From Spirosoma fluviale (GTDB lineage Bacteria > Bacteroidota > Bacteroidia > Cytophagales > Cyclobacteriaceae): DNA of 38,004 nucleotides. Below are positions 8,130-9,687 of this stretch, one piece after another (within the stretch, counting starts at the first letter, position 1; each line of letters opens with the position of its first letter). The position numbers and the translations under genes are program-made. The DNA lies in contig CAMCBC010000005.1 of NCBI GenBank assembly GCA_945872775.1, positions 1 through 38,004 of the forward strand, given 5' to 3'. Below the pieces are notes generated by a model. The model saw only the letters and a list, made by a program, of their open reading frames with translations. It ran no database searches and was not told the origin of the DNA.

Positions 8130-8152
8130 AGGATTCACCGACTTGTTTCATC

Positions 8153-8181
8153 AAAAAACCGCGATTTCTCGGTTTTTTTTT
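8153..8181 (+). terminator. Intrinsic terminator downstream of fadD
   Basis: AAAAAACCG-cgatttct-CGGTTTTTTTTT stem-loop with T-run. Confidence 0.85.
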
Positions 8182-8341
8182 GTTCTAATTTTTCTAATTC
8201 ACCCTTAGTTCTTCAATGAAGTCCATTGAGGTTGCTTCGTCTGAATACTAATAAATATAATTGAAACTATTCATGGACAAAATCGACTAATTTGATTTAA
8301 TTTGCCACAAGTTAAAGCCCTACTGCAGCAATTACCACTAC

Positions 8342-8371
8342 TTGGAAGTTGGACTTGTTTTGGTACATTTG
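8342..8371 (+). promoter_or_regulatory. Bacteroidota sigma-ABfr-type promoter of the channel-like gene
   Basis: TTG at 8342-8344, exactly 19 nt, then TACATTTG (TAnnTTTG) at 8364-8371, ~43 nt before the ATG at 8414. Confidence 0.65.
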
Positions 8372-8413
8372 AAATTTATTATTTACATAAAAAAAGTATA
8401 AAAAAAACATTAT

Positions 8414-9541
8414 ATGTTTAATAAAAAGAAAACATCGCATGTAATTTTAATGATTTTCCTAATTGGTATATTAATTTCAGGATTTGCTTTTTCATATACA
8501 ATATCCAGTTTCATAAAGGATATGGCCACCAATGTGAGCAAAAATATGAAAGACACCATGGATCCTAAAGTTCCAGATTCAGGTAAAACTGTCTCAGATA
8601 GTTTTTTAATACCACCAAGTTCAAAAAAAGTTGTAATTGGAACCTATCTAGAAAGAATTGAAGACCTAAATATTAAAGAATCTTATTGGACTTATGAATT
8701 TTATTTGTGGTTTAAATGGAATCCAAATGAGATCGACTTTTTAGGGGAAAAAAGTTTAGCACACCAAAATGAACTTCCATTTACGGTAATTAACGGAGAA
8801 ATTTTAAAAACTGATTTGGTTGACCGATACACAGACTCAATTAACAAGGTTGAATACATTCAATATTACGTAAAAGCAAAAAGTACCCAATTTTTTGATG
8901 TTTCTCTGTATCCAATTGATCAACATAATTTGATTATACCGATTGAACATAAATGGATTGATAGAAAAAATCTATATTTTGAACCAGACACCAAAGATTC
9001 TAAAGTAAGCTCAAGAGTAATGGTAAATGGTTATGAAAAAGACAATAGTGTTAAAATGATCGAAAAGCCCCATGCTTATAAATCAGCGAGAGGAAATCCA
9101 AAATTCTCTGCTGACTATAAAGTGGATTTTTCTCAATACAGAATGGCAGTTAGAATCTACAAGGGTGGAATATCTGTAATTTTAAAACTATTTTTGATTT
9201 TATATATCGCTGTATTGGTAACCTTCATAGCTCCATTTGCACCAGATCCAAGTAGATACACAGTTGGTGCACTATTCACAGCAGCAGGGGGTAGTTATAT
9301 TCTAGCTTCAAAATTACCATCCACAAATGTTTTTTCCTTAGCAGAAATTATCAATGCATTTTGCATTGTTTTAATAGTTGCCATGATCGCAATTTTAGGT
9401 ATTTTACCTTCATTAATATTTAAAGATGGTGTTATAGATTCATTCGAAAAAAAGATGATTAGGGTAATTAATTTAGTTATGTTTATATTTTTCATACTAA
9501 TCAATTCCTCATTAATCTACTTCGCTTTAAGCTATTCGTAA
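8414..9541 (+). CDS. Divergent pentameric ligand-gated ion channel (Cys-loop-less pLGIC) homologue
   Basis: N-terminal TM/signal anchor; extracellular-domain pattern VVIGTYLERIEDLNIKESYWTYEFYLWFKWNP; FFDVSLYPIDQHNLIIPIE (beta6-beta7 F-D-x-S-x-YPxDxxxL); four-TM arrangement: M1 with Pro, PSRYTVGALFTAAGGSYILASKLP (M2 and M2-M3 loop), M3, M4 at the extreme C-terminus. Confidence 0.7.
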   Translation: MFNKKKTSHVILMIFLIGILISGFAFSYTISSFIKDMATNVSKNMKDTMDPKVPDSGKTVSDSFLIPPSSKKVVIGTYLERIEDLNIKESYWTYEFYLWFKWNPNEIDFLGEKSLAHQNELPFTVINGEILKTDLVDRYTDSINKVEYIQYYVKAKSTQFFDVSLYPIDQHNLIIPIEHKWIDRKNLYFEPDTKDSKVSSRVMVNGYEKDNSVKMIEKPHAYKSARGNPKFSADYKVDFSQYRMAVRIYKGGISVILKLFLILYIAVLVTFIAPFAPDPSRYTVGALFTAAGGSYILASKLPSTNVFSLAEIINAFCIVLIVAMIAILGILPSLIFKDGVIDSFEKKMIRVINLVMFIFFILINSSLIYFALSYS

Positions 9542-9587
9542 TTTCAAAAGGGACCATAATTCATGTAAATCAAATTTCATTTGGATT

Positions 9588-9614
9588 AAAAACCGCCTTG
9601 TGCGGTTTTTTTTT
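9588..9614 (+). terminator. Intrinsic terminator downstream of the channel-like gene
   Basis: AAAAACCGC-cttgt-GCGGTTTTTTTTT. Confidence 0.88.
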
Positions 9615-9687
9615 GTTGTTTTGTGTACCAAATTCCCTGCTTCACCCTTCCTAGATTGGTGAACTTCATTCGTCCATCATTATTTCT

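Follow-up and report, generated by a model that had tools for sequence, protein, structure and literature searches.

Results

The window, that is, the whole stretch of 38,004 nucleotides analysed here, is the whole of one of the 231 contigs that make up a 2.6-Mb, 79% complete draft genome, in which a single pentameric ligand-gated ion channel (pLGIC)-like gene was detected. The bacterium is known from draft genomes only. The gene spans 8414–9541 on the plus strand, to which all protein features given below also refer, and was assigned from its ORF, the match of its family profile to GLIC, an AF2 model and a Foldseek search. The ORF called on the window starts with ATG, ends with TAA and encodes 375 amino acids, exactly at the coordinates that a preliminary description of this DNA had given, and the strand opposite to it has many stops and a closed frame. 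Four orthologues with 82–86% identity to the window protein retained the frame and all motifs, which argues for more than a chance resemblance. When three of them were compared at the DNA level, dN/dS was 0.14–0.19; the gene is real and under purifying selection (dN/dS ~0.15). The pore region was the best-conserved part among the orthologues, with residues 258–296 (M1-M2) invariant between the window protein and orthologues L002–L004.

The gene is flanked by fadD-like and MATE genes, and the same site was occupied in the three orthologues having enough flanking sequence, the fourth being on a 3-kb contig. The fadD-like/MATE gap is 1,558 bp in the window (8130–9687), and it was empty (112–125 bp) in the nearest sister species (G005), whose MATE is 97% identical to that of the window, and in four other near species. 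Comparison of these orthologous sites placed the inserted segment approximately at 8190–9580, with GC content of ~30% in the insert against ~44% in the flanks. That the gene belongs to an operon with its neighbours was ruled out, as the fadD-like and MATE genes adjoin without the channel in the sister species. When the genomes were ordered by MATE identity, carriers and non-carriers of the channel gene were intermixed, and therefore one gain with no later loss does not account for the pattern. The insert is thus a single-gene, low-GC segment at a site of variable occupancy. Similar terminator hairpins were found on either side of it, at 8153–8178 and, 3′ of the gene on the plus strand, at 9588–9610, and they possibly offer recombination a substrate through which the insert is gained or lost. 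It was also observed that ~55 bp of the empty site of the sister species align with both ends of the insert, and this may account for its appearance at or disappearance from the site. A phage origin of the insert was without support, as phage records yielded no relative, nor did IMG/VR when scanned with the orthologue alignment. Among 76 genomes of the genus, five, all of them small drafts, carry any detected pLGIC, which in four is the window gene. Separately, one orthologue-bearing genome (G027) encodes a second, very divergent pLGIC with 26% GC (L017, 258–1226, minus strand), and a third type is present in a different member of the genus, G006 (L013, 1456–2427, minus strand).

The window protein alone matched no family in Pfam and nothing meaningful in NCBIfam and PHROGs, and its sole matches in the PDB were nicotinic receptor (nAChR) beta subunits (E = 0.013). 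A PADLOC match to Csm3 was weak (E = 0.008) and was judged as chance. A profile made from 18 homologues matched GLIC end to end over 290 columns (E ~4e-17), and the relatives matched PF02931, mostly at 1e-4 to 1e-7 and mostly under the Pfam curated cut-off, TIGR00860 LIC (to 1e-13) and NF033918 LGIC_1. The AF2 monomer model (mean pLDDT 82, pTM 0.73) began with a helix, continued into a beta-rich ectodomain and ended in four more helices at residues 253–275, 279–300, 309–335 and 343–374, which is the ectodomain plus transmembrane bundle expected from the preliminary description. With this model, Foldseek returned GLIC and GLIC chimeras first in the PDB (E = 5e-18, probability 1.00), with TM-scores to GLIC entries of about 0.75–0.81 when normalised by target length. 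Membership in the pLGIC (Pro-loop receptor) superfamily is therefore settled by profile and by fold, two of the checks that the preliminary description had suggested for its proposal, and its word “divergent” proved apt, given the missing Pfam match of the protein alone and a clade branch of 4.8 changes per column. Bacteroidota pLGICs, for example that of Cytophaga hutchinsonii, were already known (Tasneem et al, PMC549065).

The N-terminal hydrophobic segment (residues 10–27; 8441–8494), a signal anchor or signal peptide by hydropathy, falls within an AF2 helix of modest confidence (residues 5–49) and was retained in the four orthologues, including L055. This 18-residue stretch is separated from beta1 by a linker of ~45 residues, and most relatives have short signal peptides. 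A25-x-S27 is compatible with signal-peptidase cleavage, and a retained N-terminal transmembrane helix is plausible from the hydropathy. The beta-rich ectodomain follows at residues 71–250 (8624–9163), as delimited by AF2 secondary structure and the GLIC match. The motifs quoted in the preliminary description were all found, namely IGTYLERIEDL at residues 75–85, TYEFYLWFKWNP at 93–104, FFDVSLYPIDQHNLIIPIEH at 160–179, PSRYTVG at 279–285 and SKLPSTNVFSLAEI at 299–312. The [F/Y]PxD motif at beta6-beta7 defines the Pro-loop receptors, with the proline invariant (Jaiteh et al, PMC4795631), and it is present here as YPID (Y166, P167, I168 and D169; 8909–8920), its proline and aspartate being kept in 54 of the 54 aligned family members. 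The beta9 aromatic is Y207 (W in 45, Y in 7 and F in 2 members). The only cysteine of the protein is C317 in M3; none occurs around residues 155–180, in agreement with the absence of a Cys pair noted earlier.

The superfamily frequencies of the pre-M1 arginine, the M1 kink proline and the M2-M3 proline are 94%, 77% and 88%, respectively (PMC4795631, Table 1). The window protein has Lys250 (9161–9163) at the pre-M1 arginine position, a conservative change restricted to the window clade of five among 54 members. Membership is unaffected by it, because an arginine present in 94% of the superfamily is not universal. In M1 (residues 253–275; 9170–9238), the preliminary reading of a helix ending in Pro held in part: prolines occur near its end, but the conserved kink proline (P204 in GLIC, P211 in ELIC) is absent, the position being Ile262 here and Gly in 42 of 54 members. 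Lys258 inside M1 is lysine in 52 of 54 members, N200 in GLIC and serine in ELIC. A parallel between Lys258 and the nAChR mutation alphaN217K, aligned through GLIC N200, was dropped, as it is disputed how N217K affects agonist binding. M2 (residues 279–300; 9248–9313) is entered at PSRYTVG and contains Arg281 and the predicted gate residue Phe288 (9′). It is followed by Pro302 of the M2-M3 loop (9317–9319; Pro in 51 of 54 members), M3 (residues 309–335; 9338–9418) and M4 (residues 343–374; 9440–9535). Since the M3-M4 loop has ~7 residues, there is no intracellular domain.

The pore entry sets the window clade apart from its family. The claim that M2 is two residues shorter than in animal channels was correct from the arginine to Leu-Pro, but the whole stretch from Lys258 to Phe288 is five residues shorter, 30 here against 35 in 42 of 54 members, and the 30-residue span was exclusive to the window clade among the 54. 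In the AF2 model of a relative (L011, pLDDT 92.7), M2 begins at -3′ (residue 219, with F231 as 9′); in the window protein it begins at 0′ (residue 279), about three residues or one turn later, and the distance from the end of M1 to the lysine is equal in both. The similar M1 end together with the later M2 start implies a loss of ~2 residues from the loop and 3 from the cytoplasmic end of M2. Most family members have an acidic residue at -2′ and an arginine at 0′, many as E/D-P-R or E/D-S-R, and the window clade has P-S-R with no acidic residue at -2′ or -1′. By ungapped helix count from Phe288, Arg281 is at 2′. The unusual pore anticipated earlier was thus borne out as a feature specific to this clade. 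Animal anion-selective receptors have P-A-R at the M2 entry.

The putative ligand site was compared with that of ELIC, whose reference sequence was verified against PDB 2yn6. The primary-amine site of ELIC consists of Glu77, Glu131, Phe133, Tyr174/175 and Phe187/188 (PMC3119659). Glu178 (8945–8947) aligned with Glu131, and a glutamate was found at this position in 59 of 62 family members. Phe239 in loop C (9128–9130) aligned with Phe188, and the aromatic was kept in 57 of 62. The positions of ELIC Tyr38 and Phe19 are mostly aromatic across the family, with Tyr97 and Tyr78 in the window clade. Both alignment modes agreed that Phe133 is replaced by Lys180 in the window clade and Tyr175, Phe or Tyr in the family, by Arg226 in loop C (9089–9091). 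The equivalent of Glu77 would be Asp108, an unsure assignment made across gaps. These residues suggest a ligand that carries an amino group and, for the window clade, possibly a carboxylate as well. Arg226 might, tentatively, shift the ligand toward a zwitterion or carboxylate.

Homologues, mostly 21–30% identical to the window protein, were found in 52 of 392 genomes of the same order (many families) and in 22 of 398 genomes across the phylum, and also on Azospirillum and Streptomyces plasmids. In addition, a 618-residue protein (L014:19–1875) consists of tetratricopeptide repeats fused to a pLGIC module, and Foldseek against BFVD returned pLGIC-like A0A5J6VL22 (Megaviridae environmental sample) and A0A7S9SUV3 (Virus NIOZ-UU159). 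Placement of the window clade within the family tree failed: at 4.8 changes per column its branch is very long, and the fork is left open. To judge by sequence, the clade is without close kin outside itself, and four features separate it from the rest of its family, namely Lys250, the five-residue-shorter M1-M2, Arg226 and the long N-terminus.

At 14 of 14 loci in f66, a family belonging to the same phylum, a flavin amine oxidase gene (PF01593) followed the main channel copy after 6–25 bp, and a Tat signal was found in the one f66 oxidase scanned with Pfam. Two loci of family f22, from the window's own order, also had the channel with a flavin amine oxidase, at gaps of 3 and 40 bp. The loci concerned were L151–L164, L145 and L146, and also L127, L131 and L137. 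The oxidases of f66 and f22 share 46–48% identity, and their channels are split by well-supported branches; either the association evolved on two occasions or two lineages kept it. No adjacent amine oxidase was found in the window clade or in most relatives. Such a pair could form an amine-sensing and amine-oxidising operon, and because relatives in two clades pair with the oxidase, the ligands probably belong to the amino compounds, a conclusion that the pairing supports without proving. A full-text literature search found no paper joining a pLGIC and a flavin amine oxidase, which is not proof of novelty.

Discussion

We give a probability of roughly 0.7 to the reading that the window gene encodes a homopentameric inner-membrane channel that is gated from the periplasm by an amino compound. 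The five subunits would sit in the membrane with a periplasmic beta-sandwich ring above a pore lined by M2, and a small amino compound would bind between subunits at the site formed by Glu178 and the aromatics. Binding would move the Pro-loop and the M2-M3 loop, the hydrophobic gate at Phe288 (9′) would open, and the resulting ion flow would change the membrane potential. Ion channel function as such is very likely; it is supported by the GLIC profile and fold match and by the retained Pro-loop, beta9 aromatic and M2-M3 proline, and weakened by the change of the pre-M1 Arg to Lys and the M1 Pro to Ile. An amine-type ligand is likely; it is supported by the retained equivalents of ELIC Glu131 and Phe188 and by the oxidase operons of relatives in two clades, and weakened by the replacement of Phe133 and Tyr175, by the unsure equivalent of Glu77 and by the absence of the oxidase link from the window clade and most relatives.

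The chances are about even that this is an ordinary ELIC/GLIC-like cation channel in which, with the late M2 start, Arg281 would be at 0′ outside the pore and cations would pass by way of Asp278 or the vestibule. Most family members do combine an acid at -2′ with Arg at 0′, a basic 0′ residue is common across pLGICs (PMC4795631), and ELIC, a bacterial relative of solved structure, selects for cations (PMC3119659); however, the window clade lost the entry acid, has P-S-R, and Arg281 counts as 2′ from Phe288. The shortened M2 and an arginine ring at the cytoplasmic mouth, without the acid, may tentatively favour anions. That M2 arginines can confer anion conductance follows from the muscle receptor, in which one M2 arginine reportedly gave chloride conductance at positive potentials (PMC6800317). 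It is a doubtful but possible proposal that in this clade a bacterial pLGIC has naturally become anion-selective, with five arginines at its inner mouth and a zwitterionic amino compound as the gating ligand. Equally tentatively, the lost acid, the gained Pro-Ser-Arg and an M2 about a turn shorter might be an independent counterpart of the glycine/GABA-A filter. The loss of the acidic filter could instead mean low selectivity.

A non-conducting receptor derived from a pLGIC, acting as a ligand-binding membrane sensor with five arginines at the pore mouth, would agree with the deviations at pre-M1, the M1 kink and M2 and with the very long branch of the clade, but we regard it as improbable, the pore region being the best-conserved part among orthologues and Phe288 and the M2-M3 proline being retained. 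Chance resemblance, a contaminating contig or a decaying pseudogene, to which the GC content below that of the flanks and a draft of 231 contigs at 79% completeness might point, can be discarded with near certainty. It is already refuted by the orthologues, three of which occupy this site in other assemblies and one of which lies on a short contig, by purifying selection and by the profile and fold matches.

Bacterial pLGICs are structural models for human neurotransmitter receptors, yet little is known of what most of them bind and do in nature. The amine oxidase link in related clades is a genomic pointer to a ligand class for the whole Bacteroidota family. In the window clade the selectivity region carries a deletion that arose naturally, M1-M2 is fixed across species, and charge selectivity is testable by a few residue swaps with relatives; anion permeability, if true, would be unusual for a bacterial pLGIC.

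Like the window protein, GLIC, which is the proton-gated channel of Gloeobacter violaceus, has an ectodomain and four transmembrane helices, no Cys-loop disulfide and a short M3-M4 loop. The two share ~15% identity in structural alignment, and the window protein differs in lacking the kink proline and in having Lys for the pre-M1 Arg, a shorter M1-M2 and a long N-terminal segment. ELIC of Erwinia/Dickeya, gated by primary amines, has in Glu131 and Phe188 the equivalents of Glu178 and Phe239, whereas the window protein has Lys180 and Arg226 in place of Phe133 and Tyr175, and a shorter M2. The Bacteroidota pLGICs, including that of Cytophaga hutchinsonii, share the glutamate at ELIC position 131, the M1 lysine and VGxLF in M2; unlike the window protein, they have a short signal peptide, a Y-x-T-x-F-G-D-P loop C, an acidic M2 entry and a full-length M2, and some, unlike the window gene, are in an operon with a flavin amine oxidase. 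Animal glycine/GABA-A receptors resemble the window protein in the Pro-x-Arg M2 entry (Foldseek E ~1e-16), whereas the window protein has no Cys-loop disulfide, no intracellular domain and an M2 shorter by two residues; this resemblance in the filter is not kinship.
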